From positions 47,346-111,345 of the IMG/VR virus record IMGVR_UViG_3300042891_001512: DNA of 64,000 bases; one strand, 5' to 3'. The notes below the pieces were generated by a model. The model saw only the letters and a list, made by a program, of their open reading frames with translations, had not been told where the DNA came from and did no database searches. Below are positions 2,372 through 19,401 of this stretch, piece by piece. Position numbers and translations under genes: made by a program. Positions within the stretch are counted from its first letter, which is position 1; each line of letters begins with the position of its first letter. This DNA is from a virus.

Positions 2372-2989
2372 TTATAATTTTGTAATAGTATAAAAAGATG
2401 GTGTGGTAAATCTTTCTCCAGACTTAATTACCTTGACACCATGTAGGTAATTAATATCGCCAGGATGAGCAACTGCAAGCCCAGGTTCTGGCTTTACTTC
2501 AATGTCATGTTCAGGGTAATATAATTCGCCGCCCTCAAAATCATCATTATAATATATAAGTGAATTTAGATCATACGTAGGGAATGGATTTGGTGATCCA
2601 TCGTTTAGCTGCTTATCAGCATGTGGACGTTGCTCTATCCCAGGAAACCATCTTATTATAACTGGTGGTCTAACTGACAATTCAACATTAAAAGAATCTT
2701 CTAAAAAATATTTCATTTTTAATATATATTTGTCAACAAGATTATAAATATCTAAATTTATCTTAGATAAGATCTCACCACTACACTGTCTGTTCGACCA
2801 ATAGGAAGCATCGTATGTGCACGTTCCATCTTCTGAATATTGATTTTCACCAGCATCCATCCATTGATTAATTTTTGGTAAAAAATCTTGTATAATTTTA
2901 AGGTCTTCTAAATCTACAAAGTTTTTTATAATTTTTATATTGTCTTTCGAACTGCCAAAATGTCCTGGTTTTACTAAAGATTCTTCCAC
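2372..2989 (-). CDS. 2OG-Fe(II) oxygenase, prolyl 4-hydroxylase type
   Basis: A 205-aa protein of the Fe(II)/2-oxoglutarate dioxygenase fold, which uses O2 and 2OG to hydroxylate a substrate. The double-stranded beta-helix shows H123-x-D125 (PHADK), the strand NDDFEGGEL at about 149-156 typical of the prolyl 4-hydroxylase/Oxy_3 branch, distal H183 (YLHGV) and R193 (GERF) for the 2OG carboxylate. All key residues are present. The start is GTG with AAGGAT six bases upstream. It is the only - strand gene of the island, converges on the terminator shared with the proline-rich repeat gene, and is divergent from the next oxygenase gene. The substrate is unknown; the neighbouring FPP protein is an attractive candidate, by context only. 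Confidence 0.88.
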   Translation of the reverse strand: MEESLVKPGHFGSSKDNIKIIKNFVDLEDLKIIQDFLPKINQWMDAGENQYSEDGTCTYDASYWSNRQCSGEILSKINLDIYNLVDKYILKMKYFLEDSFNVELSVRPPVIIRWFPGIEQRPHADKQLNDGSPNPFPTYDLNSLIYYNDDFEGGELYYPEHDIEVKPEPGLAVAHPGDINYLHGVKVIKSGERFTTPSFYTITKL

Positions 2990-3019
2990 TGGTTATCCTT
3001 TGCAAGCAAAAAGTTTATG

Positions 3020-3028
3020 TGGTATAGT
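3020..3028 (+). promoter_or_regulatory. Extended -10 promoter (TGGTATAGT)
   Basis: TGG-TATAGT lies 32 bp before the ATG at 3061, leaving a leader of about 25 nt with GGAG at 3051. The same TGTGGTATA core recurs before 7795 and 13382, which supports a phage promoter. No clear -35 box is seen. Confidence 0.6.
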
Positions 3029-3034
3029 ATATCA
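3026..3034 (-). promoter_or_regulatory. Extended -10 promoter on the opposite strand (TGATATACT)
   Basis: On the - strand TGA-TATACT overlaps the + strand promoter and would start a short leader into the GTG at 2989. The two -10 elements share three bases, so the two directions may compete for polymerase. Confidence 0.4.
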
Positions 3035-3060
3035 TTATCACTTATCGATTGGAGATTTAA

Positions 3061-3795
3061 ATGGAATTTTTTCATGTTGGCGCGTGTGCAGATAGTAAAG
3101 ACAATGCTAAATTCGGCATCTATTTGTACAGAAATGCTATTCCAAGAGAGTTAAATATCCCAGAAAGATTAGAAGAAGCAATAGGCGACAGCACGCACGA
3201 GTTGTTTAAGTGGTCAGAAGCGATGGTTGGCTATAACGTAAAAATGCCGGACTATAGAGATTGTGTAGACCTCAAAATGAGCCCAAGTCATTGGCAGTAT
3301 TTAACTCCAGAATTTGAAGAAGTAAAAAAATGCTACGAAGATGTAGAGACAAATTTAAAGAAATGCCTAACTCATTACGAATCTTTATATAATTTTAAGA
3401 TGGATTATATGGAAGCTATAAACTTTGTTAGATATAAGCCGGGTCAACATTTTGCGGTGCACGCTGACCACGGTTTTTCATATACGTGTACATTGTCTTC
3501 GGTCATGTATTTGAATGATGATTATGAGGGTGGGGAATTGTGGTTTCCTTATCTCAATATAAACTTTAAACCACAAGCTGGGGATATAGTTTTGTTCCCT
3601 TCAACATATATATATGCGCATTCTTCATTGAAAGTAAAAAGCGGTGTTAAATATTCTGCTGTTACTATGTTTGATTATAACGACAATAACCACAAACATG
3701 GCATTGGCTATGGTGGTGACGGAAGCAAAATAACAGAAAATGTTGGGATATCTAAAGCGGACAATGTTCCTTTAACATACCCAATGCCACAATAG
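3061..3795 (+). CDS. 2OG-Fe(II) oxygenase, prolyl 4-hydroxylase type
   Basis: A 244-aa dioxygenase. Core motifs are H134-A-D136 (VHADH), the strand LNDDYEGGEL at about 151-160 and distal H187 (YAHSS). The usual 2OG-binding Arg is replaced by K197 (SGVKYSA). Collagen prolyl 4-hydroxylases are known to use Lys at this position, so this points towards that branch rather than inactivation. An upstream extended -10 promoter and GGAG at 3051 support the ATG. It is the first gene of the rightward accessory operon; the GPx-like gene follows after 9 bp. The substrate is unknown. Confidence 0.87.
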   Translation: MEFFHVGACADSKDNAKFGIYLYRNAIPRELNIPERLEEAIGDSTHELFKWSEAMVGYNVKMPDYRDCVDLKMSPSHWQYLTPEFEEVKKCYEDVETNLKKCLTHYESLYNFKMDYMEAINFVRYKPGQHFAVHADHGFSYTCTLSSVMYLNDDYEGGELWFPYLNINFKPQAGDIVLFPSTYIYAHSSLKVKSGVKYSAVTMFDYNDNNHKHGIGYGGDGSKITENVGISKADNVPLTYPMPQ

Positions 3796-3804
3796 GAGGG
3801 CATT

Positions 3805-4428
3805 ATGGAGAATCAGCAAATAAACCCGTTGGAAATACCAACAGTTGAATACTATGATGAATCTATATATGATTTAAACCTAGAGTCTTTAGACGGAGAA
3901 GAAAACATCTTTGAAAAGAATAAAGGCAAAGTTACAATGCTCGTTAATGTTACCGGAGAATGTGCTAATTCCCCACAGTATGTAACTATACAAAATTTAT
4001 ATGATAAATATAAAGATTTGGGTTTTGAAGTGGTAGCGGTTCCAAGTACGGATTTTTGTGACCATGCATATGGAGATTTTAAGGACTCAAATGCAAGCCC
4101 AGAACTTATGCGTAGCCATATGAAGGAATTGTATAAAACAGATTTACCATTTGCTAAAATGGCAGCAATCGTAGAAGATTCAGCAACAGGTTTGCCAGTT
4201 CATCCGTTCTATGAAAAAGTTCAAGAAAATAAAGATCCTATTCAAGGTAATTTTGAAAAGTTTATTATTAGCAAAGATGGCAAAAAGGTAGTTAGATACT
4301 GCAACTCGGATCTGCTTGACCTTGCATATAATTCAGGGAATAGAACGATTAATTCCGAAACAGCGTTGAAAAGTATTACTGAAACTATAGAGCATTTTCT
4401 TGGTGAATCAGATATAATAGTTGAATGA
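3805..4428 (+). CDS. Glutathione-peroxidase-like thioredoxin-fold protein, copy 1
   Basis: A 207-aa protein with the GPx layout: NVTGECANSPQY at 48-59, then the helix LYDKYKDLGFEVVAVP, HPFYEK at about 133, and NFEKFIISKDG near 149-159. C53 sits at the peroxidatic Cys position. The Gln-bearing segment (CNQFGxQE in typical members) is changed to STDFCDH, and the Trp before Asn149 is Gly, so the catalytic tetrad is incomplete. GPx enzymes reduce peroxides with a thiol donor; whether this copy does is uncertain. It lies between a 2OG oxygenase and the DUF6065 gene, whose ATG overlaps its stop. A second, differently diverged GPx-like gene lies at 15101. Confidence 0.8.
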   Translation: MENQQINPLEIPTVEYYDESIYDLNLESLDGEENIFEKNKGKVTMLVNVTGECANSPQYVTIQNLYDKYKDLGFEVVAVPSTDFCDHAYGDFKDSNASPELMRSHMKELYKTDLPFAKMAAIVEDSATGLPVHPFYEKVQENKDPIQGNFEKFIISKDGKKVVRYCNSDLLDLAYNSGNRTINSETALKSITETIEHFLGESDIIVE

Positions 4429-5129
4429 CTAAAGTTACCTTAACAAAGACAACTCAAGACGCACCAGAAATACGCCAGTCACGAATAAAGCGTGAGTGGA
4501 TGGACAACACCTATAACAAGCATGCCTACCAGTGTTTGCCTATGACGTATGCAAACGTTTATGGCTGGGAATTGATTCTGCCGCAAGATGTTGTCGCTCA
4601 GTGGGATGGTGGCAATACAGTGCCTAAGATCCTTGAAGGGGCAGAGTACAAGGGTAGACAAATAGCTTACGGTGGAATCATTGGAATGGTTTCCTTTTCT
4701 ACTGGATGGGCATTCGGCACTGAAGACGGTTATGAAACCTCAATTGGAGGTTCTCCAAATTACATGGTAGATGGAGCTTCTCCTTTGTCGGCAATAATAC
4801 CGAGCAGCTGGTGGCCAGATGAATTCCAAATGAATTGGATGATAAATAAAATTGGGGAACCAGTTGTCTTTGAAGCAGGAATGCCCTTTATGTTTTTTAA
4901 TATTTTTGATAGCACAGTTACAAATAACGTAGAATTCAAAGTAGAAAATTTGTGGGACAAACCAGAGCTAATGAACTCTAGGCAAAAATATGGCGATATG
5001 AAAATGAAAAATAATCAAGAAAATCCTTGGACATGGACAAAAGGAATAAGAACTGGAGTTGATGCAGACGGCAATAAAATCGGACCAAGTTTTACCGGTT
5101 TACCAAAGTTAGATGAACCAAGTTTATGA
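4425..5129 (+). CDS. DUF6065-family protein
   Basis: A 234-aa protein whose order of motifs agrees with what I recall of DUF6065: CLPMTYANVYGWEL at about 37-50, W-D-G-G, then GGIIGMVSFSTGWAF, a YETSIGGSPNY segment, DGASPLSAII and a Trp-rich FQMNWMI followed by VVFEAGMPF. It is predicted beta-rich, with no signal peptide or membrane segment. The family has no assigned reaction that I know of. The start overlaps the GPx stop (ATGA) and its own stop overlaps the next ATG, so translation is probably coupled. It sits just before the first copy of the duplicated cassette. Confidence 0.75.
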   Translation: MTKVTLTKTTQDAPEIRQSRIKREWMDNTYNKHAYQCLPMTYANVYGWELILPQDVVAQWDGGNTVPKILEGAEYKGRQIAYGGIIGMVSFSTGWAFGTEDGYETSIGGSPNYMVDGASPLSAIIPSSWWPDEFQMNWMINKIGEPVVFEAGMPFMFFNIFDSTVTNNVEFKVENLWDKPELMNSRQKYGDMKMKNNQENPWTWTKGIRTGVDADGNKIGPSFTGLPKLDEPSL

Positions 5130-5284
5130 ACGCAAAAGATAAAGCAATAATTTATTTAGATAACTCTATTAAGAATTTGTCTGAATTAATAAAAAAATCA
5201 AATTTTGATTCTTTAGTAAAAAACGCAGAACAATCTTTGTTAAACCAAAAAAACGCTTTGAAGGAAATTAAAGATGGAGCCTAG
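5126..5284 (+). CDS. Small helical protein of the duplicated cassette, copy A
   Basis: A 52-aa ORF starting at an ATG that overlaps the DUF6065 stop and ending inside the next gene. It is short, but it is needed to explain an otherwise empty 144 bp, and it resembles the N-terminal half of the protein at 13382: both have AKD-x-A, then a helix with SI-x-x-LS-x-L. Predicted to be one amphipathic helix pair rich in Lys and Asn. Function unknown. Its conserved place before an acidic protein, an RRxW protein and a methyltransferase-like protein suggests a small partner subunit. Confidence 0.6.
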   Translation: MNAKDKAIIYLDNSIKNLSELIKKSNFDSLVKNAEQSLLNQKNALKEIKDGA

Positions 5285-5480
5285 ACAAATCAGTGAAGAA
5301 TTAATACATGAATTTACGGAAACGATGGACGATGCTATCCCTGTTTATTCTGATGAAGATCAAAATATCATAATGCCAAATGGCGGGACAACAAGGGAGT
5401 ATGTTTTGACTGAAGTATTTGCTGAAATGAATAAGTATGTGATACTCCCATTATCTCCATCTGTGGATGATCTAATATGA
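5274..5480 (+). CDS. Small acidic protein, unknown
   Basis: A 68-aa acidic protein (start MEPRQISEELIHEF). It overlaps the preceding small gene by 11 bp and the next by 4 bp. No family is recognised; it reads as a helical N-terminus, an extended middle with MPNGGTTREYV and a helical end. It occupies the same slot as the 64-aa acidic protein at 13594 in cassette B, but I see no convincing similarity between them. Confidence 0.6.
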   Translation: MEPRQISEELIHEFTETMDDAIPVYSDEDQNIIMPNGGTTREYVLTEVFAEMNKYVILPLSPSVDDLI

Positions 5481-5776
5481 AAACCTACAATGCGGAAAAA
5501 GACTTAGAATATATTAATGAGCAATTATATTTATATTTATATATAATTGGTTTAAATCCTAAAAATATTGACGAGTATTCAATAGACCAAATAATAAATT
5601 CTGCAAGAAATATATCAATAGCTCCTATAAGCGAAGTTGAGTCAGGCTCTATGGATCTTTCAAATGATCCTCTTTATTTATTTTTAAAAAACCAAAGAAT
5701 ATCTTTAATTGGAAACATTAGAAGAATTTGGTACATGCGACAGTTAGCAATTGGAGCAATCAAAAATGCAGTATGA
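5477..5776 (+). CDS. RRxW small protein of the duplicated cassette, copy A
   Basis: A 99-aa, mostly helical protein. It aligns with the 93-aa product at 13781: DLE near the N-terminus, a hydrophobic helix followed by G-L/I, then ID-x-x-IN-x-x-RN, and near the C-terminus K-x-Q-x-I-x-L-x(2)-G-x-RR-x-W. No known family is recognised. Both copies lie directly upstream of, and overlap, a methyltransferase-like gene, so the two products probably act together. Start ATG overlaps the previous stop. Confidence 0.75.
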   Translation: MKTYNAEKDLEYINEQLYLYLYIIGLNPKNIDEYSIDQIINSARNISIAPISEVESGSMDLSNDPLYLFLKNQRISLIGNIRRIWYMRQLAIGAIKNAV

Positions 5777-6464
5777 AGTAGATTATTTTGATAATTTAGT
5801 TAAATTAATAAAATACAATGATATCGAATCAGTTGAAGATTCTATATCAAAAAGTAAAATAATAAATGAATACTTAGAGGCTTTTTCTATAGATAAAAGA
5901 AAAATAGCTGCTGGTATGGATTTTATGATTTGGTATTTTGATGTCTTTAGTAAAGAAAGTCATTTTTGGAATGTCAATCCTGCCTACTTCTATGCGGCTA
6001 ATACGCATGAATTTGGTTTTCTAACAGCTAATCCAAAAACTTCACTAATGACACTCCCGGCTTTTAATACTGGTTTAGCGAGATTAATGGAGAAGAAATC
6101 AAAGCTTTCTTTATTAAATAACTATCAGCTACATTTATTTGAGCACTATATAGGTGATGAACCGTGGTCTTACGACACTGTTACAATGCAGGATGTACAA
6201 TCTGGCAATGGTGGCTACTATGATTTCATATGTATGAGCATTCATGACGTTATCCATGATCCAGATTTAGTTATAGATTTTTTTAATTTATTAAACAAAA
6301 ATGGAACAATGATGATGCTATATACTGGCACTGATCAGCTTTATAAAAATGGATCAATATATACTGATTTTTATGAAGTTCACAGAAATTTAATTAATAT
6401 TAAAAATTCATGCGTTTATCATAACCCTACAGGAGCAGCTGTTACTTATGCAGTTAGTTTATAA
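5766..6464 (+). CDS. Diverged methyltransferase-like protein of the duplicated cassette, copy A
   Basis: A 232-aa protein; I chose ATG 5766 (GGAG nine bases upstream) over an upstream TTG. It is a paralogue of the product at 14052: IDKRKIAAG matches VDRRNIATG, YDFICMSIHDVIHDP matches FDMIVGWSQDMENP, NKNGTMMM matches NTGGILVI, and both end in a short strand after NPTGA or PLFYG. The alternating strands and the NxxG late motif resemble class I SAM methyltransferases. The glycine-rich SAM loop is not recognisable in this copy, so it may bind something else or be non-catalytic. Function unknown; the fold is inferred. Confidence 0.65.
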   Translation: MQYEVDYFDNLVKLIKYNDIESVEDSISKSKIINEYLEAFSIDKRKIAAGMDFMIWYFDVFSKESHFWNVNPAYFYAANTHEFGFLTANPKTSLMTLPAFNTGLARLMEKKSKLSLLNNYQLHLFEHYIGDEPWSYDTVTMQDVQSGNGGYYDFICMSIHDVIHDPDLVIDFFNLLNKNGTMMMLYTGTDQLYKNGSIYTDFYEVHRNLINIKNSCVYHNPTGAAVTYAVSL

Positions 6465-6467
6465 AAG

Positions 6468-7145
6468 ATGATTATTATAGATGATTTCATAAAAGATAAA
6501 AATTTATTAGAAGAAATAGAGTTAACTCCAAATTTCTTTCCAGAATCAATGGGCGACGAAGAAAAAATAGCTACAGTTCTAAATGGTTATCACGATGGAC
6601 AATGTGATTGTTTTGCGCCGTATATGTTTTGGGATGGTTGGTTAAAATCTGAGGCAGATACTCCAAGAAAAAGATTAATTAAAAAAATATGGGAGAACAA
6701 TCTTCCATTCCCAGTAGAAGACGTTTGCGGTTTTGAGTATTGGACTAGAACTTTTAAGCCTGGACAATTTCTTGATACTCACGTAGATGAAGATACATTT
6801 CTTTACGCAGATAAAAAAATATTTAGAGGACCAAGAATAGGTTGTGTATATTATCCGCACACCAATGATGTGGTTGGTGGATTTTTAGAGATGCATCCTA
6901 CAGCTATTTCAGAAGATACAGCTAACGCTTTAGAGAAAGAAAATATAGATCATTTAATAGTTCCAGTAGAGTTAAGAGAGAGAATATCTTGTAAGCCAAA
7001 TAGGCTAATAATTTTTGACGCTGGACATGTCATACATAACACGACTCCACCGATTAAAGGTGTTAGAAGAGTTGTGGTGGTAAATGTGTGGCATAAAGAT
7101 AACCCACCATCAGCTTTAAAAACTGGTGAATTTTATTATGAATGA
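6468..7145 (+). CDS. 2OG-Fe(II) oxygenase
   Basis: A 225-aa protein with a jelly-roll dioxygenase core: H105-V-D107 (THVDED) after FKPGQFLD, the strand RIGCVYYPH, VGGFLEMH, then FDAGHVIHNTTP with H190 (or H187) as distal ligand, and R200-R201 (KGVRRVVVVNVW) for 2OG. It belongs to a different branch from the NDDxEGGEL oxygenases around it. A 2-bp gap separates it from the methyltransferase-like gene, and the next gene starts inside its end. Substrate unknown. Confidence 0.82.
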   Translation: MIIIDDFIKDKNLLEEIELTPNFFPESMGDEEKIATVLNGYHDGQCDCFAPYMFWDGWLKSEADTPRKRLIKKIWENNLPFPVEDVCGFEYWTRTFKPGQFLDTHVDEDTFLYADKKIFRGPRIGCVYYPHTNDVVGGFLEMHPTAISEDTANALEKENIDHLIVPVELRERISCKPNRLIIFDAGHVIHNTTPPIKGVRRVVVVNVWHKDNPPSALKTGEFYYE

Positions 7146-7734
7146 AAAAATTGATTTATTTACATTAAGTATATGTAAAACTTTTTTACAAAACATTGAC
7201 AATGATAAGTTGTTGAAGGAAATAGAAAAATTTGACACAACACCAAATGTAAAAGATCCATCACCGGCTCATACTTTTTACGAAGATAAGCTTTATCCTT
7301 TTGGTCAACCAGAATCAATGAAGTTAATTGATGAAATAACTAATTCTGTCAATCATTTTACTAACTTAGATATGGTTATGGATTCTATTTGGACTATAAC
7401 TCTAGAAAAAGGCCAGTCTGTTTTAAGCCACACGCACAAGGTAAACACTCAGCTTTATCCAGAAGAATATTATTCTGTTTCATACTATGTAAGCGCACCA
7501 GAAGATAGCGCAGATTTAATATTTGTTACCACACACTGTAATACAATAGAGAGAGCAACTTCAGTTAAAACAGAGACAGGAATGTTGTTGATATTTAACT
7601 CTTACATTCCTCATATGACAAATAGGCAATATTCCGAAGAAAAAAGAGTTGTCGTAAGTGCAAACTTTAGTCCTAAAACACCGAACACTAACCCTACCGC
7701 AGATTGGTCGGAATATAGGGTGCCAAATAGGTAA
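7138..7734 (+). CDS. Putative 2OG-Fe(II) oxygenase (Oxy_5-like)
   Basis: A 198-aa protein starting at the ATG that overlaps the previous stop. The core reads LEKGQSVLSHTHKVN with H98-x-H100, YYSVSYYVSAPEDSA, ETGMLLIFNSYIPHMTN with H159, and EKRVVVSANF with R170. This order matches the small family sometimes called putative 2OG-Fe(II) oxygenase (Oxy_5-like), in which an HxH pair replaces HxD. It ends the first operon segment; an extended -10 promoter follows 32 bp later. Activity and substrate are not known; a cupin-type non-oxygenase is the main alternative. Confidence 0.7.
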   Translation: MNEKIDLFTLSICKTFLQNIDNDKLLKEIEKFDTTPNVKDPSPAHTFYEDKLYPFGQPESMKLIDEITNSVNHFTNLDMVMDSIWTITLEKGQSVLSHTHKVNTQLYPEEYYSVSYYVSAPEDSADLIFVTTHCNTIERATSVKTETGMLLIFNSYIPHMTNRQYSEEKRVVVSANFSPKTPNTNPTADWSEYRVPNR

Positions 7735-7794: not shown

Positions 7795-8904
7795 ATGACT
7801 GTAACAAAAGAAACTTACAAAGAATTCATAGGCAATATAAAGATTAATGACATAGAGCCTATCATCAATGCCCCAGAAGTGGATTTTGCTGCGGTTGACC
7901 ATGTTGTTAAAACTAATTTTGATATAATGTTTACTTGGGATTATTCTTTAGCTCGCACACAATTAAGAAAGCTTTACGAAAAAGCTAAAAATAATCAATG
8001 GAATGGAGAAACTGCATTAGACTGGTCTACTCCTGTTGATATAGAAAAGTCTGTAGCTGAGGACTATGCAAATTTTGGATCGACTAGAGAGATGTCAGTC
8101 TATGAGGGTAGCCCTATAGAAAATTGGGGCGATAAAGAATGGCTGCAATTTGGCTTAGAAAGCAGAAGGTGGATGATCTCACAGTTCATACACGGAGAGC
8201 AAGGTGCTCTGATTTGTTCTGCAAAACTAACACAAACATGTCCATGGTACGATGGCAAACTTTTTGCTGCAACACAAGTTGTAGATGAAGCTCGACATGT
8301 TGAAGTTTTTGCAAAGTATACTAATGAAAAATTGGGTGGAACACTTCCTTTTAACTGGCATATCCAAGGCTTGGTTGACGATACTATTGCCGACAATCGT
8401 TGGGATATAACCTATCTAGGAATGCAGATTATGGTTGAGGGGCTCGGCCTTGCATCGATGGCGTATATGCGTGAATTAACAAATGAACCGTTGTTGAAGC
8501 AATTGTTGCGTAATGTTATGGCTGACGAAGCGCGTCATGTTTCATTTGGTATTATCTCACTCAAGGAGATCTATGCGGAAATGACCGATTCAGAGATTAT
8601 GGAGCGTCAGCAGCTTGCCTATGAAGCTAGCATAAAGCTTGGGGAGCGAATGCTGCAACAAGAGGTATACGAAAAGATGGGTGTTAAGACAAAAGACATT
8701 GCCCCGTTCTTATTGAACGATCCAGCACAGGCTTGGATTAGAAAGATGCTTGCGGCTAAGATTGTCCCAAACCTTAGCAAGCTAGGGTTGCTAGATAGAA
8801 ACGGTGCTTGGTTGCGTAGAAAATTTGAAGAAATGGGAACAATAGAATTTGAAAACCTTGGAGATTCTGAAGAGGAGTTTTCAGCTTTTATACATAGTTA
8901 CTAA
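7795..8904 (+). CDS. Ferritin-like di-iron oxygenase-type protein
   Basis: A 369-aa protein of the ferritin/R2 four-helix superfamily. Both halves of the di-iron site are visible: E135 (HGEQGAL), E165-x-x-H168 (DEARH), E215 (MVEGLG) and E245-x-x-H248 (DEARH). This six-ligand set is that of R2-type and monooxygenase-type di-iron proteins, which activate O2. No radical Tyr position or RNR partner gene is apparent, so ribonucleotide reductase is not my first choice; hydroxylation, desaturation or N-oxygenation of a small or carrier-bound substrate is more likely. It has its own promoter and strong RBS (AGGGAG). Its codon use looks slightly more GC-rich than that of its AT-rich neighbours downstream, a possible sign of separate origin. 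Confidence 0.85.
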   Translation: MTVTKETYKEFIGNIKINDIEPIINAPEVDFAAVDHVVKTNFDIMFTWDYSLARTQLRKLYEKAKNNQWNGETALDWSTPVDIEKSVAEDYANFGSTREMSVYEGSPIENWGDKEWLQFGLESRRWMISQFIHGEQGALICSAKLTQTCPWYDGKLFAATQVVDEARHVEVFAKYTNEKLGGTLPFNWHIQGLVDDTIADNRWDITYLGMQIMVEGLGLASMAYMRELTNEPLLKQLLRNVMADEARHVSFGIISLKEIYAEMTDSEIMERQQLAYEASIKLGERMLQQEVYEKMGVKTKDIAPFLLNDPAQAWIRKMLAAKIVPNLSKLGLLDRNGAWLRRKFEEMGTIEFENLGDSEEEFSAFIHSY

Positions 8905-8906: not shown

Positions 8907-9572
8907 ATGAAAACACCTAATGATTATAATGTAGATAGAGTTTATTCCTATGAAAGCTCTGAAGATCTAAAGAGATATTATAATGATTGGGCGGATGAAT
9001 ATGATAGTTATGCAAAAGACGTAAACTACATCTTGCCAGAAAAAGTATCCGAAGTATTTTTTAAGTACGTTTCTAATAGTAATTATAGTGAAACAAAAAA
9101 AAATAGCATATTAGACATAGGTTGTGGTACCGGCTTATTGGGTGAGAGCTTGTCTTTTATTGATGATAATCTTTGGATTGAGGGCGTTGATATATCTTCT
9201 TCAATGATAAGGATAGCTTCTTTAAAGAGAAGAAAAAATTTTTTACCTGTATATGATTGGATGATGGTAGACGATCTGACTAGCCCAAAGTTAATGCTAG
9301 AAAGTTATTATGATTACTTTATAAGTTCTGGAACATTTACTCTTGGTCATCTTGGTTCTAGTGATTTAATTAATTTATTAATTTATTTAAAATCACAAGG
9401 TATAGCAGTTATATCAATAAAAGAAGACCATTTTATTCATGATAACTTTAAAGAAATTTTTGTAGAATTAGAAAAAAACAAAACAATACAAGATATAATG
9501 TATTACAAGGTGAACTCTTACGAATCAAATTTTAAAGCAGATTCAATAATTGTAAAGTTTAAAAAAGTTTAA
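8907..9572 (+). CDS. SAM-dependent methyltransferase, class I
   Basis: A 221-aa protein with a clear SAM-binding motif I (ILDIGCGTGLLGE at about 68-80) and motif II (GVDISSSMIRIA at about 93-104). The N-terminus has YYNDWADEYDSY, as in small-molecule methyltransferases. The acceptor strand reads YFISSGTF. It starts two bases after the di-iron gene and is followed by a TauD-like gene, so the three probably act on one substrate. The methyl acceptor is unknown. DNA methylation is unlikely because no NPPY/DPPY motif is present. Confidence 0.85.
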   Translation: MKTPNDYNVDRVYSYESSEDLKRYYNDWADEYDSYAKDVNYILPEKVSEVFFKYVSNSNYSETKKNSILDIGCGTGLLGESLSFIDDNLWIEGVDISSSMIRIASLKRRKNFLPVYDWMMVDDLTSPKLMLESYYDYFISSGTFTLGHLGSSDLINLLIYLKSQGIAVISIKEDHFIHDNFKEIFVELEKNKTIQDIMYYKVNSYESNFKADSIIVKFKKV

Positions 9573-12218: not shown

Positions 12219-12587
12219 ATGGCTTATGAGATGATAGGCGAGAGTCCAACATCCGCAGTGGGGCTGTGTGTTAGATTAAATATTTGGAAATGGTATGAGT
12301 TTGTCAGAATGATTAGCTATTTTAATATAATCTCTGATTTAGAAATTTCGTCCTGGATGACAAATGATCAGGTTGAATTGTCCAGTGAGGAAGCAATATT
12401 ATTATCGGAAAATATAAAATCAAATCTTGATAACTTTGATTATTTTATAAATGAACTTTACAAAGAAGACATCCCCTATTCACACATGCCGTGGCACAGA
12501 GAAGTTTGTTGTCCAATTTTAAATGGATCTGACATCAAATATGTGCTATTATTTTTAGAATCATGTGGTGGGTTTAAGGTTAGATGA
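12219..12587 (+). CDS. Hypothetical protein, 122 aa
   Basis: I do not recognise a family. It is a helical protein with an aromatic, amphipathic N-terminal part (LNIWKWYEFVRMISYF at about 20-35), an acidic middle, and Cys-Cys near the end (REVCCPIL). It has no signal peptide. It starts six bases after the radical SAM gene and overlaps the next oxygenase by 4 bp. Its position next to a radical SAM gene makes a carrier or accessory subunit conceivable, but nothing in the sequence proves it. Confidence 0.6.
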   Translation: MAYEMIGESPTSAVGLCVRLNIWKWYEFVRMISYFNIISDLEISSWMTNDQVELSSEEAILLSENIKSNLDNFDYFINELYKEDIPYSHMPWHREVCCPILNGSDIKYVLLFLESCGGFKVR

Positions 12588-13348
12588 AGGTGGAAAGAAT
12601 GTATAAGCCGAGAATAATTGTATTTACCGATTTTCTACCAAAGGAAGATTGGGAAGTTGTAGATAAGTATTGTAGAGATAATAAAGAAAAATTTCCATAT
12701 GTCGGTTACGGTTCTCCGGTTAGATGGAAGATAGAGGAGCATTCTAAAAATCCAGATATTAAATATATTCGTTCTTTTTTAATTTCAGAAGAAGAATACG
12801 ATCTATACATGAAGGGTGAAATACCGGAGCCTTATCCAAACGATACAAAGCATGGCGACAACTATGTAATGTCGGTAGAAGAGATCCAAAAGGTTGAGGA
12901 AGAGCCACCTGTAACTGCACTCATGCACCATTCTAAATGGCCAAATAGCTTACTGCAAAATAAAACATTTGACATTATAAGCGGTTACCTGTCTGGTGTC
13001 GTAAGTATAGTAAAAGAAGTATATGGCGAAGATTGTTTCAGTGAAAGTGGCCCTTGGATAGCGGTAGCTAGAGAAGGTGGCTATATGAATATGCACTGTG
13101 ACGGAACGTTTATACATAACAGGGACGCCATTACACAGTATTCTAGCGTGTATTACATCAATGACGATTATGAGGGCGGCGAATTCAATATGCCGCTGAT
13201 GGGCTTTAAGCTTAAACCTAAAGCAAATTCGCTTCTTATTTTTACCCATTCTTCCCATGAAGATATGGCGCATGAGGTAACACCAGTTTTATCTGGTGAT
13301 CGTTTTGTTTCACAAGGATTTTTTGCCATTACAAAAACCAATAGCTGA
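12584..13348 (+). CDS. 2OG-Fe(II) oxygenase, prolyl 4-hydroxylase type
   Basis: A 254-aa dioxygenase with a complete site: H171-C-D173 (NMHCDGT), INDDYEGGEF at about 192-201, H230 (MAHEV) and R240 (SGDRF). The N-terminal half (PRIIVFTDFLPKEDW) is the usual entry helix of this branch. ATG 12584 overlaps the previous stop; ATG 12599 with AAGGTGG upstream is the alternative. It ends the second operon segment; a promoter follows directly. It stands in front of cassette B, as the oxygenase at 3061 stands upstream of cassette A. Confidence 0.87.
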   Translation: MKVERMYKPRIIVFTDFLPKEDWEVVDKYCRDNKEKFPYVGYGSPVRWKIEEHSKNPDIKYIRSFLISEEEYDLYMKGEIPEPYPNDTKHGDNYVMSVEEIQKVEEEPPVTALMHHSKWPNSLLQNKTFDIISGYLSGVVSIVKEVYGEDCFSESGPWIAVAREGGYMNMHCDGTFIHNRDAITQYSSVYYINDDYEGGEFNMPLMGFKLKPKANSLLIFTHSSHEDMAHEVTPVLSGDRFVSQGFFAITKTNS

Positions 13349-13593: not shown

Positions 13594-13788
13594 ATGAGTA
13601 GTATAGGTGAGCCAAATAGTTTTGGAATGGAAACAAGACAAGGGGAATCTATAACTGATACCCCAGACTGGGACAACGAAATTATAGAGTGGGACTCTGC
13701 GACTGGGATATATTATGTTGCCGGCAAACCGGTCAGCATGTGTCAAGGTGTTGCAATGTTTAAGGAAGAAAAAAAAGAAGATGAATAA
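13594..13788 (+). CDS. Small acidic protein, unknown
   Basis: A 64-aa protein starting two bases after the previous stop. It contains WDNEIIEWDSATGIYYVAG, a short beta-hairpin-like region, and a charged tail EEKKEDE. No family is recognised. It fills the same position as the 68-aa product at 5274, but the sequences do not clearly align. The next gene starts inside its last codons. Confidence 0.6.
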   Translation: MSSIGEPNSFGMETRQGESITDTPDWDNEIIEWDSATGIYYVAGKPVSMCQGVAMFKEEKKEDE

Positions 13789-14062
13789 GTATAGGCCGCT
13801 AGAAGATCTGGAGCACCGTTCCCAACACTTGGCATCTTTTTTGTTTATTCTTGGAATTGATGAAGATGATTTTGAATCTACCAAAATAGATGATGTTATA
13901 AATCTTATTAGGAATAGATACGTGTACAAACACAGCCATCCAGATTACAATATAGCGGTTCAAGAATACGTTAAAAAACAAAGTATTGTTTTAAATAGGG
14001 GAGTTAGAAGAGCTTGGTTTGATGTGCAAGTTGCTTCGTACGAGGTGCAAAATGTCGGGTGA
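13781..14062 (+). CDS. RRxW small protein of the duplicated cassette, copy B
   Basis: A 93-aa protein from ATG 13781, which overlaps the previous gene; upstream in-frame starts would lie inside that gene and have no RBS. It aligns with the 99-aa product at 5477: DLEH near the start, a hydrophobic helix ending LGI, IDDVINLIRN, and KKQSIVLNRGVRRAW. The longest shared element is the basic RR-x-W end helix, which could contact nucleic acid or an acidic partner. Family not recognised. Confidence 0.75.
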   Translation: MNKYRPLEDLEHRSQHLASFLFILGIDEDDFESTKIDDVINLIRNRYVYKHSHPDYNIAVQEYVKKQSIVLNRGVRRAWFDVQVASYEVQNVG

Positions 14063-14792
14063 TAAAAAGTATGAACCACAGTTATCTTTTGATTTTACTA
14101 GCTGGGAATATGATTGGCGATCATATGCTAATGAGTCTACGAAAAAAGATGGACCAGAGTCAGTAGCAATTTCTGATTATTTATTTAATACAGTTGGTGT
14201 AGATAGAAGAAATATAGCTACTGGCGGGGCCAGTGATTATGAATTTGTTATACATTACCCAAGACCAAATTTAGCTGACTCATACGGTCAATCTCAGTGG
14301 ATGCCGATACTATTAATTCAGATGCTAATGGATATTAGTAGAGGCAAGAATATACTGGCATTGTCGGGGGGGCTAGATAGATTTAGATTGAAGCCTTTTC
14401 AGGATATCTACGGGTCTAATATATATATGTTGAATAATAAAAAAACAGCAATGTATGAAAAGTTCCAAAAAGAAAATACTCCAATAGAATATGATGTTGT
14501 TAGCCATCAGGATCTAGAAAAAGACAATTGCAATAATTATATGTTTGATATGATTGTGGGATGGTCACAGGACATGGAGAATCCCTTTGTGCCTGTACAT
14601 TTTTATCTTGATAGATTAAATACAGGTGGGATTCTAGTGATCCAAAATTCATCAGATAGCATTTTTCTTTACCAAAATGATACTCAGGCATCTCCTGTTT
14701 GGGAGTATCACAATGAGATAAAGTCAAGAAAAGACTGCAACATGTATCACATACCTTTGTTTTATGGGGTTACAGTTGTCATTAAACAATAA
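14052..14792 (+). CDS. Methyltransferase-like protein of the duplicated cassette, copy B
   Basis: A 246-aa protein; ATG 14052 is preceded by GAGGTG and overlaps the RRxW gene. This copy keeps a plausible nucleotide-binding start (KNILALSGGLDRF at about 109-121), a following IYMLNN strand, DMIVGW in the position of the catalytic-strand motif, and LNTGGILVI late in the fold, the order of a class I SAM methyltransferase. The glycine loop is unusual (SGGLD rather than GxGxG). It is a clear paralogue of the 5766 product. The substrate is unknown, and SAM binding is inferred. Confidence 0.68.
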   Translation: MSGDKKYEPQLSFDFTSWEYDWRSYANESTKKDGPESVAISDYLFNTVGVDRRNIATGGASDYEFVIHYPRPNLADSYGQSQWMPILLIQMLMDISRGKNILALSGGLDRFRLKPFQDIYGSNIYMLNNKKTAMYEKFQKENTPIEYDVVSHQDLEKDNCNNYMFDMIVGWSQDMENPFVPVHFYLDRLNTGGILVIQNSSDSIFLYQNDTQASPVWEYHNEIKSRKDCNMYHIPLFYGVTVVIKQ

Positions 14793-14796: not shown

Positions 14797-14805
14797 TGAT
14801 ATAAT
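14797..14805 (+). promoter_or_regulatory. Extended -10 promoter (TGATATAAT), probably leaderless
   Basis: TGA-TATAAT ends only six bases before ATG 14812. A transcript starting about 7 nt after the hexamer would begin at or next to the start codon, giving a leaderless mRNA. No Shine-Dalgarno sequence is seen in the gap. Confidence 0.6.
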
Positions 14806-14811
14806 TGTTTT

Positions 14812-15108
14812 ATGATTACTAAATGGAAAGCAACAGTGGTTAATCCACTTGGAACAGAAAAATACAGTGTAAACCTGGACAGTACGGATGACTTAGCCAC
14901 CGCTACGGCGTCAAGCGAAAAGGGTACCGTTCAGTTTGTGCAAACACAAAGCCTAAGTCCTCTATTCGCCGCAAACATAGAAGCTCCAATGAAAACAAGA
15001 TTAGAGCTAGAATTTAGCACCAATGATTTTACCTCAAAAGATATGTCAGCTGTTTTAAGGGTAGGAGATTTTTCTAGTATGAAAGTAGATTTGGTTAGAT
15101 ATGAATAA
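14812..15108 (+). CDS. Hypothetical beta-rich protein, 98 aa
   Basis: I do not recognise this protein. It looks beta-rich with alternating polar and hydrophobic residues, a Thr/Ser/Ala-rich middle and the end DFSSMKVDLVRYE; no Cys, no signal peptide, no membrane segment. Its mRNA is probably leaderless (see the promoter at 14797). Its stop overlaps the start of GPx-like copy 2, so the two are translated together. Confidence 0.6.
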   Translation: MITKWKATVVNPLGTEKYSVNLDSTDDLATATASSEKGTVQFVQTQSLSPLFAANIEAPMKTRLELEFSTNDFTSKDMSAVLRVGDFSSMKVDLVRYE

Positions 15109-15721
15109 TTCAGCATACGATATTGAGCTATTGTCAATCGACGGCTCATATGACATTATGGGGTCAATGAAGGGCAAATTAACTCTTGTAACAAATATAG
15201 CTTCAAAATTAGGCTATGATCCTAAGTGTAGTGTAACTTTTTCTTACGCAAGAACTTGTAAATATTTATGGGAACTTGAATTCATTTATCAAAAATATAA
15301 AGATCAAGGCTTTAGCGTCGTTGGTATACCATGTAATCAATTTGGGAAACAAGAGCCAAAAGAGAATAACGAAATAGAAGCTTTTATCAAAGAAGCTTAT
15401 CCTTTTGTAAGTTTTCCTATTTCTCAAAAAATAGAAGTTAACGGCAAAAATGAACATCCGCTTTATTCTTTTTTAAAGGGACCAGAAAAAAGAGGATATT
15501 CAGACACTACCGCAGACAGCAGCGATGCAGCTATTGAAGGACAGAATTTAGTTGGTCAGGCAATAGCAAGAATTCCACATAGCTACGAAAAATTCTTATT
15601 AAGCCCTCAAGGAATGTTTATTACTAGATTTAATTGGCAAGATGGACCACTAGATGAGGAGCCTAGAGTTATGGGCGCTGGTTGGACCATTATGGAAGCA
15701 ATAGAGGAGATGCTAGGATGA
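15101..15721 (+). CDS. Glutathione-peroxidase-like protein, copy 2
   Basis: A 206-aa GPx-family protein. It keeps GIPCNQFGKQEP at 75-86, the classic GPx signature including the tetrad Gln (Q84), and HPLYSFLK at about 119-126. The peroxidatic segment reads NIASKLGYDP, with L37 where Cys or Sec is expected, followed by an insertion with C43 and C53. The Trp-Asn pair is H160-S161. So the tetrad is incomplete, but in a different way from copy 1 (3805), which keeps Cys and Asn and lost Gln. C43, C53 or C78 might replace the missing Cys. It lies between cassette B and the four tandem oxygenases, and its stop overlaps the next ATG. Confidence 0.85.
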   Translation: MNNSAYDIELLSIDGSYDIMGSMKGKLTLVTNIASKLGYDPKCSVTFSYARTCKYLWELEFIYQKYKDQGFSVVGIPCNQFGKQEPKENNEIEAFIKEAYPFVSFPISQKIEVNGKNEHPLYSFLKGPEKRGYSDTTADSSDAAIEGQNLVGQAIARIPHSYEKFLLSPQGMFITRFNWQDGPLDEEPRVMGAGWTIMEAIEEMLG

Positions 15722-16815
15722 GCTACAATATAGAGTCAGAAAATTCCCAAATTAGAGATGTAGCGTTCCCCTCTAGCCCACCCCTTAATGAGGACACTGT
15801 AAAAGAAATATCCACAATTGAATGCGAAATTCTTGGCCCAGGTGTCGTGGTTTTTAGAAACGCTTTTCAGATAGATCAGGACGCAGTGCTAACGCATATT
15901 GATTCTAATGCAGAAGAAGCGCATAAAACCCGATGGGAATATGTTGAGGTTGATGGCGTAAAAATGGGCATCAATGAAGATGGCTTTAGGTATAGGATGG
16001 AAGACGTACCAGCAGCACCGATAAGATTGCTTGACCCGGTAAACGAATCTACGCCTAAAGAAGTAGAAGAGTTTCTATACACTTTGGAAGACCAAATATA
16101 CAAGTGTCTGATAAAGTACATAGACCACTACCCCCTGATGCTTGGTAGCATATGGTGGAAGACAAGAGGCCATATATTACGCTATGGAGATGGTGGAAGA
16201 CTTGGTTGTCACGCAGATAATGATACTAATTATAAGGTGACAAAAGGCGTTAGGTATATGCCAAAGGGTATGGTCGCATCAAGACAAACATGCGGTGCTT
16301 TAATTTACCTAAATGATTGCGTAGATTCTGAAGAAGAATTAAATGGAAGAAATTTTACAGGCGGACATCTTAGGTTTGTTCATTTGGGAATTTCTTATAA
16401 GCCAAGAAAAGGTGACATAATATTCTTCCCAACAAATTACGTCGCGTCCCACGATGTAGAAACTATGGGTAAGGGTGTTAGATATAGTTATTTAACTTTT
16501 TTTGGTCAAGGCGCAAATGATAAGAGCGCAAATATTATGATAGTTGAACCAGATGAAAGTTTCCAATGGTGTCCTCCTGTTTGGTTGAATAATATATATG
16601 ATGATTATGAAATGTATTGCAAATCTCCATATTCTATTTTTTCTGATCCAGGAAAAAACAATGTAGAAGTTGGTTGGAACCCAGTTTACCAAGGAAGAGA
16701 AGTCGCACAGTACAGCACATCACACGATGCGGTTGAGGTTGAAGAAGCTAAAGCTGATACTGTATCCGAAGATCTACCAGAAGGACCATGCGGTACTGAA
16801 GCTGTAAGAATCTAA
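15718..16815 (+). CDS. 2OG-Fe(II) oxygenase, tandem array member 1
   Basis: A 365-aa protein from ATG 15718, overlapping the GPx stop and preceded by GAGGAG. H165-A-D167 (GCHADND), H245 (ASHDV) and R255 (GVRYSY) form a full 2OG/iron site. It shares with the next three genes the signature IWWKTRGHILRY just before the HxD and an inserted acidic loop (VDSEEELNGRNF) before GGH, where other branches have NDDYEGG. It is the longest of the four, with a ~100-aa C-terminal extension that ends in an acidic tail. The first 40 residues are also extra. Substrate unknown. Confidence 0.85.
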   Translation: MSYNIESENSQIRDVAFPSSPPLNEDTVKEISTIECEILGPGVVVFRNAFQIDQDAVLTHIDSNAEEAHKTRWEYVEVDGVKMGINEDGFRYRMEDVPAAPIRLLDPVNESTPKEVEEFLYTLEDQIYKCLIKYIDHYPLMLGSIWWKTRGHILRYGDGGRLGCHADNDTNYKVTKGVRYMPKGMVASRQTCGALIYLNDCVDSEEELNGRNFTGGHLRFVHLGISYKPRKGDIIFFPTNYVASHDVETMGKGVRYSYLTFFGQGANDKSANIMIVEPDESFQWCPPVWLNNIYDDYEMYCKSPYSIFSDPGKNNVEVGWNPVYQGREVAQYSTSHDAVEVEEAKADTVSEDLPEGPCGTEAVRI

Positions 16816-16819
16816 TATT

Positions 16820-17734
16820 ATGAAAATAGAAAAATTAGGAACTGGAATTGTCCTATTCCAAAATGTTATCAACATGGAAGAATACCCTGAGATAATACCT
16901 TTCATAAAATCATTAAAGCAAAAGGCAGTAGAAGAAGATTATACGATAATTAAAAATGAACGCAATGAAAGTGTATATGCCATAAATAGAAGTGGGCATA
17001 GATATGCAATAGAGGATATAGAAAAAAGCTCTAGCCACATTATGAATTTTTTAGATAATAATGATTCTGATAAAATAGAATTGTTTTTTATTGAATGCGA
17101 AAGAGCTTTTAGGCAGTGCCTTCTTCAATACCTTGAGATATATCCGATGGCTCTTCCAAGTATATGGTGGAGAACTCAGGGGCATATATTAGCATATGGC
17201 CCAGGGAGCGACATGGGTCTCCATAGCGACAATGATGTTAACTACCAGCCTGGATTTGAACCAGATCTTCAAGTGGCGACTAGAAGTGTTTTGGGGTCTA
17301 TCTTGTATTTTAATACATCTGTAGATTCAAAAGAAGAGATTATAAAAGATGAATATCTTGGCGGACATATAGTGTTCCCGTATTGTGATGTTGATTATTC
17401 TCCAAAAGCAGGAGATTTACTAATGTTTCCATCTAACTTCATTGCCTCACACGAGGTTAAGGAATGTTATGAAGGTGGAAGATATGCCTATATTGGTTAT
17501 TATTCTCATGGTTCGGAGCATATAGAAAGAGGCATACAATTAATTAATGGGGATCTACCTGTTGGAAAACAGGGTCAAATATGGATGCCAGAGATAGTTG
17601 AAGAATATAAAGAATATATATACAATAAATACCCTGATAAGCCTGAAGATTTTTATGGCGATTTGCTCCAGGCAACCAAAAGAATGTATAATAGCGCTAA
17701 TACACTAAAGGAAGTAAACCATGAAATTCAATGA
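16820..17734 (+). CDS. 2OG-Fe(II) oxygenase, tandem array member 2
   Basis: A 304-aa paralogue of the preceding gene: IWWRTQGHILAY at about 115-126, H135-S-D137 (GLHSDND), the VDSKEEIIKDEYLGGH loop, H211 (ASHEV) and R221 (GGRYAY). All iron and 2OG ligands are present. It starts four bases after the stop of member 1 and overlaps member 3 by 14 bp. The C-terminus (VEEYKEYIYNKY) corresponds to part of member 1's extension. A distinct substrate for each copy, or successive steps on one substrate, are both possible. Confidence 0.85.
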   Translation: MKIEKLGTGIVLFQNVINMEEYPEIIPFIKSLKQKAVEEDYTIIKNERNESVYAINRSGHRYAIEDIEKSSSHIMNFLDNNDSDKIELFFIECERAFRQCLLQYLEIYPMALPSIWWRTQGHILAYGPGSDMGLHSDNDVNYQPGFEPDLQVATRSVLGSILYFNTSVDSKEEIIKDEYLGGHIVFPYCDVDYSPKAGDLLMFPSNFIASHEVKECYEGGRYAYIGYYSHGSEHIERGIQLINGDLPVGKQGQIWMPEIVEEYKEYIYNKYPDKPEDFYGDLLQATKRMYNSANTLKEVNHEIQ

Positions 17735-18602
17735 CGTTGATGCAAAGCATCTGGGTGGCGGTGTAGTTTTATTTGAATCAGCAATCGATATTGATTGGGA
17801 TTACATTAGAGGGTTTAGTAGAGACGCTATTAATAAAGAAAAAGAAGAAATGTATGTCCCCGCTGTAGATCCAGAAACCGGCGATGAAATCTACCTTAAT
17901 AAAAGTGGGTACTTTTTTGGCAAAGATAGTATTGACCAAATGCCAGGAAGAGGATCAGCGATACATAGATATAGTGACGAAAAGATAAAAGAAATATTTG
18001 ATTTTGTAGAAGAATCAAAAGATAAGTATTTGCTCAAGTATTTTGAACTGTTCCCTTTGGCATTTAAATGCGTATGGTGGAAGGTTAAAGGACACATAGT
18101 TCAGTACAAGAAGGATGTTTATTTGGGCAGCCATTCCGATGTTAGTGCAGATTACATATATGACGTTTGGACACCTAAAGACCAACTCGCGACTAGAAAT
18201 ACAATAAGCAATGTATTCTACTTAACCTCTTGCGTTGACACTGTAGAGGAGTTAGATGGCACAAATTTTGTTGGAGGCCATCATTATTTTAATTATTTAG
18301 ATATAAATGTAAAACCAAAAAAAGGTGATCTATTGATGTTCCCTTCTAATTTTATGGCAGCACATGAAGTCAAGCCAGTAGAGGATGGAGAAAGATACTC
18401 TTATCTTGGCTGGTACAGCCATGGAACCCCAAATAGTGAGGTTGGGGAATCAGTTGTTGACCCAGGAAAAGAGCTAGAACTAGCAAAAAATGCCACCAAC
18501 CTCTACATGCCTACCCTGGTTTCTGACTATAGAAGCTACCTTTTATCAAAGGGTTATGATGAATCGTCCGAGCAGTTTATGTTAACAAGATCGAATTATT
18601 AA
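17721..18602 (+). CDS. 2OG-Fe(II) oxygenase, tandem array member 3
   Basis: A 293-aa paralogue with VWWKVKGHIVQY at about 118-129, H138-S-D140 (GSHSDV), the VDTVEELDGTNFVGGH loop, H215 (AAHEV) and R225 (GERYSY). The site is complete. The residue pattern after HxD (VSAD instead of NDxNY) differs from members 1 and 2, which may alter substrate choice. ATG 17721 overlaps the end of member 2 (AAGGAAG upstream). Next gene follows after 1 bp. Confidence 0.85.
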   Translation: MKFNDVDAKHLGGGVVLFESAIDIDWDYIRGFSRDAINKEKEEMYVPAVDPETGDEIYLNKSGYFFGKDSIDQMPGRGSAIHRYSDEKIKEIFDFVEESKDKYLLKYFELFPLAFKCVWWKVKGHIVQYKKDVYLGSHSDVSADYIYDVWTPKDQLATRNTISNVFYLTSCVDTVEELDGTNFVGGHHYFNYLDINVKPKKGDLLMFPSNFMAAHEVKPVEDGERYSYLGWYSHGTPNSEVGESVVDPGKELELAKNATNLYMPTLVSDYRSYLLSKGYDESSEQFMLTRSNY

Positions 18603-18603
18603 T

Positions 18604-19401
18604 ATGTTAAAAAAAGATTTTAAAATAGAAGATAAAGGTTCCGGGCTATGTGTAATGACAAACGCATTTGATATTGATCAAGACATGCTTTTTGAATATA
18701 TAAACTGGCTTAAGCAGGAAGAGGAAGACACCTTTACTTATTTGGAAGAAAATGGCAAAAAGTACGCTATTAACAGAACTGGTTTTAAGTTTGATTTATC
18801 AGAAGTAAGAGAGGCGCCAGAAAGATTCGTTGATCCGCTATGCAGAATGTCGAGCAGAAAGCCAACCGCCGAACAATGCAAATTAATATATGATTTAGAG
18901 GATTTAATTTACGAGGCTTTGGTTGAATATGTAAAGATATATGACGTAGCTGCAACAGTTTGTTGGTGGAGAAGCCCTGGTCACATAGCTACTTATTCGG
19001 ACGGTCAAAAAATTGGTCCTCATTGTGATGATCAAATTCCATGGGAATATGGTGTAGCTCCAAGAAATGAGTATCCAAAGCACAGTAAGGTAAGTATAAA
19101 CATATACTTAAATGATGGCGTGGATTCTGAGGAAGAATTAAATGGAAGAAATTTCTTGGGCGGAGACATAATATTTAAATACGCGAAGTATAGACATAAG
19201 CCAAAAACTGGTAGTATAACTATATATCCAACTAACTATGTTGGCACACACGAGGTTGAATCAGTTACCGCTGGGAAAAGAATAGCCTACCTTGGAGCAC
19301 TTCTTTATGGGACTCCGGCTAATGCTAGCCCCGTTCCAGAGGTTGGAGAAGAGAGAATATGGCTACAAAATCTAAGAAAAGATGCTGGGCTAATGCATTA
19401 A
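18604..19401 (+). CDS. 2OG-Fe(II) oxygenase, tandem array member 4
   Basis: A 265-aa paralogue, the shortest of the array. It has CWWRSPGHIATY at about 120-131, H140-C-D142 (GPHCDDQ), VDSEEELNGRNFLGGD, H216 (GTHEV) and R226 (GKRIAY). The HxD is followed by D143 and the C-terminal extension of members 1-3 is missing. It ends the accessory island; a 45-bp gap precedes the first structural-type gene. Substrate unknown. Confidence 0.85.
   Translation: MLKKDFKIEDKGSGLCVMTNAFDIDQDMLFEYINWLKQEEEDTFTYLEENGKKYAINRTGFKFDLSEVREAPERFVDPLCRMSSRKPTAEQCKLIYDLEDLIYEALVEYVKIYDVAATVCWWRSPGHIATYSDGQKIGPHCDDQIPWEYGVAPRNEYPKHSKVSINIYLNDGVDSEEELNGRNFLGGDIIFKYAKYRHKPKTGSITIYPTNYVGTHEVESVTAGKRIAYLGALLYGTPANASPVPEVGEERIWLQNLRKDAGLMH

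Follow-up and report, generated by a model that had tools for sequence, protein, structure and literature searches.

A cluster of 2-oxoglutarate oxygenase genes beside an aromatic-Pro-Pro repeat gene in a phage, and its probable role in virion maturation

The repeat gene and its linkage to oxygenase genes

We analysed a 64,000-nucleotide stretch of viral DNA (the window; bases 47,346-111,345 of the 111,345-base IMG/VR record IMGVR_UViG_3300042891_001512, which continues upstream of the window). Between a tail-fibre gene and a tail sheath gene it carries an island rich in 2-oxoglutarate (2OG)-Fe(II) oxygenase-type genes (named as in Table 1), which the initial annotation had interpreted as a dedicated modification pathway. 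Two genes of this region, at 1872-2310 and 4425-5129, were absent from that annotation. The second encodes a DUF6065 protein. The first starts one base past the stop codon of the fibre gene and ends in FPPVFK at 2310; its product, basic at the N-terminus, contains a PASTA-like domain along with 16 (F/Y)FPP units. The left border of the island should be placed at 1872 to take in this repeat gene.

The island's gene set recurs in similar order in related contigs and is thus not a chance assembly. Over the long loci the order was largely kept: repeat gene, P4H1 (often reversed), P4H2, (GPx1), DUF6065, OG3, GPx2, OGa-OGb-OGc-OGd, sheath. OG3 belonged often, not always, to the core of the sheath-linked loci, and the AurF, methyltransferase (MT), TauD, glycosyltransferase (GT), radical SAM (rSAM) and paired small-ORF/MT-like genes (ORF, open reading frame) came and went. 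Record G001, with an identical sheath protein, had a shorter set: P4H1, P4H2, DUF6065 and OGc together with ORFs of unknown type, and a further 2OG gene ahead of the fibre gene. Four loci with no sheath gene nearby (L053, L069, L076 and L078) carried the repeat and core genes in a different arrangement. Because the variable genes come and go and G001 has the shorter set, the complete list of genes does not amount to a fixed pathway. The dedicated-pathway interpretation is therefore partly supported: the core order is kept in sheath-linked loci while the full mix varies, and random subsets in unrelated positions, named in the initial annotation as the opposing outcome, were not seen. The other ORFs between DUF6065 and OGc in G001 (L312:5880-7867) include one that is weakly MT-like.

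A search of viral contigs for runs of five (F/Y)(F/Y)PP units, blind to neighbouring genes, yielded at least 120 stretches, many of them truncated. In this set and in the Gly-Pro-X and DUF6065 sets described below, 2OG ORFs were detected by phmmer with the window's own proteins at 1e-5, so that distant ones were missed. Among the matches listed, a 2OG ORF was present in 81 of 120 repeat stretches. The association was one-sided: a 2OG ORF lay downstream in 55 of the 67 listed stretches with 3 kb present on that side of the repeat, and upstream in 1 of the 49 with 3 kb present there. A control scan for a Gly-Pro-X pattern, of similar total length, gave a 2OG ORF at 3/120 loci among the matches listed, and we rejected the possibility that 2OG genes are drawn to proline-rich repeats in general.

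The linkage was also visible in whole records. Among 30 of them, a Pro-Pro repeat (FFPP or FFxPPx) occurred in 17 of the 18 with at least five 2OG-FeII_Oxy_3 matches and in none of the 12 with 0-2; the remaining one, G021, is truncated at its 2OG cluster. These records were hand-picked and are mostly longer contigs: 17 were reached via the sheath gene (of 66 sheath loci), one is the window's own and the rest came via 2OG or AurF genes. Three pairs appear to be near-duplicates (G001/G002, G013/G014 and G017/G018), the FFxPPx search covered the 18 records in which FFPP had not matched, and the 2OG counts are too low (6 in the window's record, more by Pfam on single proteins). Within the subset of 17 reached via the sheath gene, the repeat was present in 6/6 with at least five 2OG matches vs 0/11 of the others. 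One sheath relative without such 2OG matches, G006, had no repeat gene among its fibre genes. The 2OG partners persist while the repeat form (FFPP or FFxPPx) and the carrier domain, PASTA-like or fibronectin-III (FN3), vary. With both carriers and different genome settings represented, a pairing limited to one phage lineage was rejected.

The reverse test started from DUF6065, using the nearest 80 of 580 loci; eight with earlier locus ids were left out. All 72 loci used from these best 80 of 580 had 2OG genes, and in 28 of the 30 with 6 kb upstream a script found the repeat there. One of its two misses (L324) belongs to G015, where another scan finds the repeat. Searched across 84,980 genomes of bacteria and archaea, the repeat pattern gave four stretches. 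Two of these, L317 and L319, are filed as bacterial metagenome-assembled genomes but are possibly phage; both have GPx, P4H1 and P4H2 beside the repeat, and L317 also has DUF6065. In L320 the repeat gene lies at the end of the stretch, and L318 had no 2OG match. Against 50,697 phage records, blastn with the repeat gene gave no match, a weak negative as BLAST masks simple repeats, and the window's DUF6065 protein gave none at 1e-5. As far as searched, the system seems confined to uncultured phages.

Reading frame and C-terminus of the repeat protein

The repeat gene spans two frames: MAQDDGKKQKRKAPKPTIAA is followed by CGG at 1932 and then by GVADSTANTT in the +1 frame. At the shift site (1926-1935) the C at 1932 is skipped and GGA is read next. 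The same break was present in 38 distinct site sequences of related loci (breaks chosen by a written rule); in 38/38, CGG stands in the 0 frame ahead of an A, and the codon before it encodes Ala, Ser or Gly. Two further breaks, in L275 and L281, have CGG followed by G. In L016, L019, L020, L021, L040 and more, the extra base is absent and the gene reads straight through. Since the break is common to 38 distinct sites, we rejected the idea that a sequencing error had split the gene.

CGG is otherwise nearly unused here. It made up 0 of 18,669 codons in 38 window genes, and a looser set of window ORFs (longest starts) had 1 in 6,054 codons vs 17.5 expected from base composition. We counted 3 CGG in 67,968 codons across 26 loci with the break and 18 in 33,965 across 13 loci whose PASTA-like gene is unbroken; 14 FN3-type loci had 80 in 36,047. 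From these sequence patterns, we take the frameshift to be programmed.

The carrier domain of the repeat is PASTA-like or FN3 in relatives, the PASTA match of homologue L271 lying under the Pfam cut-off. In homologues L019, L024 and L034 the repeat is followed by an S74 intramolecular chaperone domain of tail-fibre type. This domain opens with SDxRDK right after FPPxFK, the residues where other versions stop. The excerpt of PMC8326128 on endoNF describes a self-cleaving Ser-Lys pair, S911/K916, five residues apart, and the spacing in SDVRDK is the same. If such cleavage applies, the S74 form and the plain form would mature to an identical end. The C-termini of 115 repeat ORFs (distinct in the last 80 residues) comprised 6 S74-type junctions, 45 ending in xFK and 64 others. 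Because of the S74 junction and the position behind the fibre gene, the repeat product is likely a fibre-tip protein. After the repeat, L237:8063-9304 and L262:7693-8331 have intein/Hint-like C-terminal domains, under the Pfam cut-off, which are perhaps an alternative self-cleaving end replacing the S74 domain; the repeat tail of L196 had no intein/Hint-like match in Pfam.

A second repeat gene lies upstream in the same record (L189 about 13,807-14,236; record about 41,150-41,580). It is broken in the same way and immediately follows another large fibre gene. Of the 17 repeat-bearing records, 8 have a pair of repeat sites, separated by about 8-16 kb. Also upstream, among head-type genes, is a further 2OG gene (L189:3822-4406; PF13640, 33 bits). 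Between the convergent repeat gene and P4H1, a GC-rich hairpin at about 2314-2349, with runs of A and T on its flanks, resembles a bidirectional terminator.

Proteins encoded in the island

The inventory in Table 1 rests on ORF calls and Pfam, with landmarks from PHROGs. Every enzyme gene of the initial annotation was recovered: nine 2OG-Fe(II) oxygenase-type genes, a TauD-like gene, two glutathione-peroxidase-like (GPx) genes, and di-iron, radical SAM/SPASM, GT, MT and two MT-like genes. The 2OG genes at 3061, 7126, 12584, 15718, 16820, 17721 and 18604 matched 2OG-FeII_Oxy_3 or _5 over the Pfam cut-off, and those at 2372 and 6468 scored under it (21.2 and 22.6 of 27 bits). As for the placement between fibre and neck genes, PHROGs agreed on the fibre side and identified the sheath gene; "neck" was a label of the initial annotation, and the ORFs before the sheath gene (19780, 20672 and 21018) had no PHROG match. 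The two MT-like ORFs had no Pfam match at E 0.1, and NCBIfam on ten island proteins gave nothing over cut-off. OGa-OGd are clear paralogues (phmmer among themselves, 2e-31 to 2e-51); GPx1 and GPx2 are related, as are both small-ORF/MT-like pairs (4e-8 to 2e-6).

Table 1. Positions in the window of the repeat gene, the island genes and their landmarks
Feature	Position	Strand	Basis or remark
Tail-fibre gene	74-1870	+	PHROG tail fiber match 3.5e-31; true start possibly elsewhere
Pro-Pro-repeat gene	1872-2310	+	Sequence, translation, homologues
+1 frameshift site GCT GCG CGG A	1926-1935	+	CGG conserved across homologous sites
Array encoding 16 (F/Y)FPP units	2107-2298	+	TRF: 2104-2285, 12-base unit
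P4H1, 2OG oxygenase, HxD...H...R	2372-2989	-	PF13640 21.2 bits, under cut-off
P4H2, prolyl-4-hydroxylase-like 2OG oxygenase, HxD...H...K	3061-3795	+	PF13640 48 bits; PDB P4H by profile and fold
GPx1, glutathione-peroxidase-like	3805-4428	+	PF00255 49.7 bits
DUF6065 protein, predicted dUTPase-like fold	4425-5129	+	PF19541 144.9 bits
Small ORF and MT-like ORF (MTl1; MT-like 5751-6464)	5477-6464	+	Paralogous to 13715-14792
OG3, 2OG oxygenase-like	6468-7145	+	PF13640 22.6 bits, under cut-off
OG4, 2OG oxygenase, HxH...H...R	7126-7734	+	PF13759 36.8 bits
AurF/R2-like di-iron protein, two DEARH motifs	7795-8904	+	PF11583 30.6 bits
Methyltransferase	8907-9572	+	PF13847, PF13649
TauD-like protein, HTS replacing HxD/E	9577-10473	+	PF02668 31.4 bits
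DXD glycosyltransferase (Gly_transf_sug)	10475-11209	+	PF04488 48.3 bits
Radical SAM/SPASM enzyme	11190-12212	+	PF04055, PF13186
OG5, 2OG oxygenase	12584-13348	+	PF13640 42.3 bits
Small ORF and MT-like ORF (MTl2; MT-like 14019-14792)	13715-14792	+	ORFs, paralogy
GPx2, GPx-like, Cys at other place	15101-15721	+	PF00255 95.6 bits
OGa, 2OG oxygenase	15718-16815	+	PF13640
OGb, 2OG oxygenase	16820-17734	+	PF13640
OGc, 2OG oxygenase	17721-18602	+	PF13640
OGd, 2OG oxygenase	18604-19401	+	PF13640
Tail sheath gene, right-hand landmark	23797-25110	+	PHROG tail sheath 6.6e-22

The metal-binding cores proposed for the nine 2OG families held up: HxD/H and the distal H were invariant, gaps aside, in the relatives gathered here. 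The 2OG-binding R/K was invariant or nearly so in eight of the nine; OG3 differs, with R in 26/55. H123 and D125 of P4H1 were present in 175/175. In P4H2, H134, D136 and H187 occurred in 148/149 (one gap each) and K197 in 137/149, with R in 9. The TauD-like protein has HTS in the window vs HxD/E in 9/13 aligned sequences (the window's copy included; the alignment is gapped there). Cys53 of GPx1 was present in 40/40. In GPx2, the place that we take to be that of the usual peroxidatic Cys (from the motif NVASxCG) held A, F, L or Y in 43/49, and an invariant Cys lay six residues on (49/49).

A profile of 20 P4H2 proteins, compared with solved structures, matched prolyl 4-hydroxylases first (the first three at 1.4e-7 to 1.6e-7), with weaker matches to PBCV-1 P4H, PKHD-type PiuC and prolyl 3-hydroxylase 1. 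The predicted P4H2 model had a predicted local distance difference test score (pLDDT) of 82. Its best structural match was a Pseudomonas P4H (Z 18.9, 2.6 A, 175 residues); an algal P4H crystallised with a (Ser-Pro)5 peptide aligned at Z 18.1, and prolyl hydroxylases of the hypoxia-inducible factor were also close. Judged by profile and predicted model, P4H2 is nearest to peptidyl prolyl 4-hydroxylases in sequence and fold. The DUF6065 model (pLDDT 88) had a dUTPase-like fold, with a best Z of 11.0 at 5.1 A over 122 residues and 10.6 at 2.9 A over 119. Pfam gave no dUTPase family match at E up to 0.1, PF19541 alone being found, and the best match by sequence to solved structures had E 0.09. We read DUF6065 as a partner rather than an enzyme.

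One ORF of 3695 codons amid the tail genes (41120-52207) is unusually large.

Candidate function and comparison with known systems

The initial annotation had left the target open among a virion protein, a glycan and a small molecule; our data point to the neighbouring Pro-Pro-repeat protein. We consider it probable that the island is a virion-maturation cassette which hydroxylates, and then further decorates, a Pro-Pro-repeat fibre tip. The core substrate would be the small repeat protein, probably capping the fibre tip. P4H1 and P4H2 would hydroxylate prolines of the (F/Y)FPP repeat, and OG3, GPx2 and OGa-OGd might introduce or regulate additional oxidation elsewhere. DUF6065 could serve as a non-catalytic partner, for example by holding the repeat, while the variable AurF, MT, TauD, GT, rSAM and MTl genes may add lineage-specific decorations. 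In this way the chemical surface facing the host could change with the fibre unchanged.

Several observations weigh against this interpretation. One repeat type by itself does not explain ten different oxidases, and the second repeat gene of this phage has no 2OG gene beside it. No 2OG gene was detected at 5/41 repeat loci with 5 kb downstream, among the matches listed. The Fisher value for the downstream/upstream contrast (6e-20) overstates independence, since the records are interrelated, and the Gly-Pro-X control pattern is identical on both strands with its frame not fixed, so that some matches may not code Gly-Pro-X. Of the repeat ORFs, 64/115 end neither in an S74-type junction nor in xFK. 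P4H2 also matches PKHD-type PiuC (E 1e-3; Z 15.9, 25% identity). P4H2-like genes occurred in 129/50,697 phage records, and the five stretches examined (3 isolates, 2 single-cell viruses) had no aromatic-Pro-Pro repeat; such enzymes can therefore have other targets.

An alternative is that the enzymes serve to synthesise or alter a surface glycan or small molecule, and that the repeat protein travels with them merely as part of one host-range module. This would fit the AurF, TauD, rSAM/SPASM, GT and MT types, which as families occur in metabolite pathways. Likewise, for a cyanophage 2OGFeDO cluster, the excerpt of a jumbo-phage review puts forward a secondary metabolite or decoration of the capsule (PMC7824862). 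We nevertheless regard this alternative as unlikely: it is the metabolite-type genes that vary, whereas P4H1, P4H2 and DUF6065 stay constant by the repeat gene, and P4H2 is nearest to peptidyl prolyl hydroxylases, though PolD is listed too, at structural rank 50. It is more doubtful still that the targets of the 2OG enzymes are host proteins, or that these enzymes deplete 2OG and so steer host nitrogen signalling. Modulation of 2OG levels is proposed for marine cyanophages in an excerpt of PMC3037559, and a bacterial P4H complexed with EF-Tu heads the Foldseek matches of P4H2, but a host target leaves unexplained both the one-sided linkage to the Pro-Pro repeat and the absence of the repeat where 2OG genes are few. 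Scattered cargo, gathered at a hotspot for unrelated accessory genes beside the fibre genes, would account for a variable insert that is not constant even where phages share an identical sheath protein. It is very improbable given a core order kept over many contigs and different genome settings, and given the reciprocal association of DUF6065, 2OG genes and repeat (DUF6065 loci from the best 80 of 580).

A modified fibre tip would mean that phages alter their contact with the host through chemistry in addition to sequence, and the cassette would then be a source of enzymes modifying proline, and perhaps aromatic residues, in simple repeats. The repeat protein offers a concrete, testable substrate for phage 2OG oxygenases, which are common yet have mostly unknown targets, and the island gives a genomic setting to DUF6065, a family on which our literature search found no paper. 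The combination of an aromatic-Pro-Pro tip, a +1 shift at a nearly unused codon, about ten partly interchangeable oxidases, a dUTPase-fold partner and tailoring enzymes could amount to an undescribed virion maturation yielding a chemically non-standard adhesin, a proposal that we hold with slightly less belief than doubt.

The nearest counterpart of the frameshift is in glass sponges, for which an excerpt of PMC5009743 describes +1 frameshifting at a very rare CGG_(A) adjoining GGA; for Ty3 the same excerpt describes a slow A-site codon after GCG. The phage site shares with the sponge site the extremely rare CGG_(A) codon and the extra base 5' of GGA. It differs in belonging to a phage gene, presumably read on bacterial ribosomes.

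The 2OG oxygenases of marine T4-like phages belong to the same superfamily and are sometimes near tail genes, but aromatic-Pro-Pro repeats were absent from the five stretches examined. In the cultured Synechococcus phage S-SCSM1 (L516), six genes annotated as 2OG oxygenases surround two tail fibre genes, and the stretch has no aromatic-Pro-Pro repeat. Structure-based annotation likens many phage 2OG oxygenases to human prolyl hydroxylase EGLN3, with no substrate named in the excerpt (PMC12774648), and an asparaginyl hydroxylase is described as core to pelagimyophages in an excerpt of PMC7029224. An excerpt of PMC8968730 contains nothing on phages. Our literature search gave no paper with FFPPFFPP, and among the matches listed on prolyl hydroxylation or 2OG enzymes in phages, none concerned a Pro-Pro repeat in phages, by title.

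Peptidyl P4Hs such as algal P4H-1, PBCV-1 vCPH and bacterial P4H, whose substrates are proline-rich or collagen-like proteins, share the predicted fold and HxD...H...K with P4H2, and here a proline-rich repeat gene adjoins the enzyme. Unlike them, the island has about ten oxidases per cassette, a dUTPase-fold partner and a phage fibre setting, and its repeat is aromatic-Pro-Pro, not Gly-Pro-X or Ser-Pro. Clusters for ribosomally synthesised and post-translationally modified peptides resemble the island in having a precursor-like repeat protein beside rSAM/SPASM, 2OG, MT and GT genes. The product here would instead be a structural fibre protein. In T4-type phages, gp37 and gp38 form a fibre and tip-adhesin pair, and gp38 has glycine-rich segments. 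The likeness is one of position, a gene for a small repeat-rich protein lying directly downstream of a fibre gene; in the window, unlike gp38, the repeat is proline-aromatic rather than glycine-rich, with oxygenases beside it.

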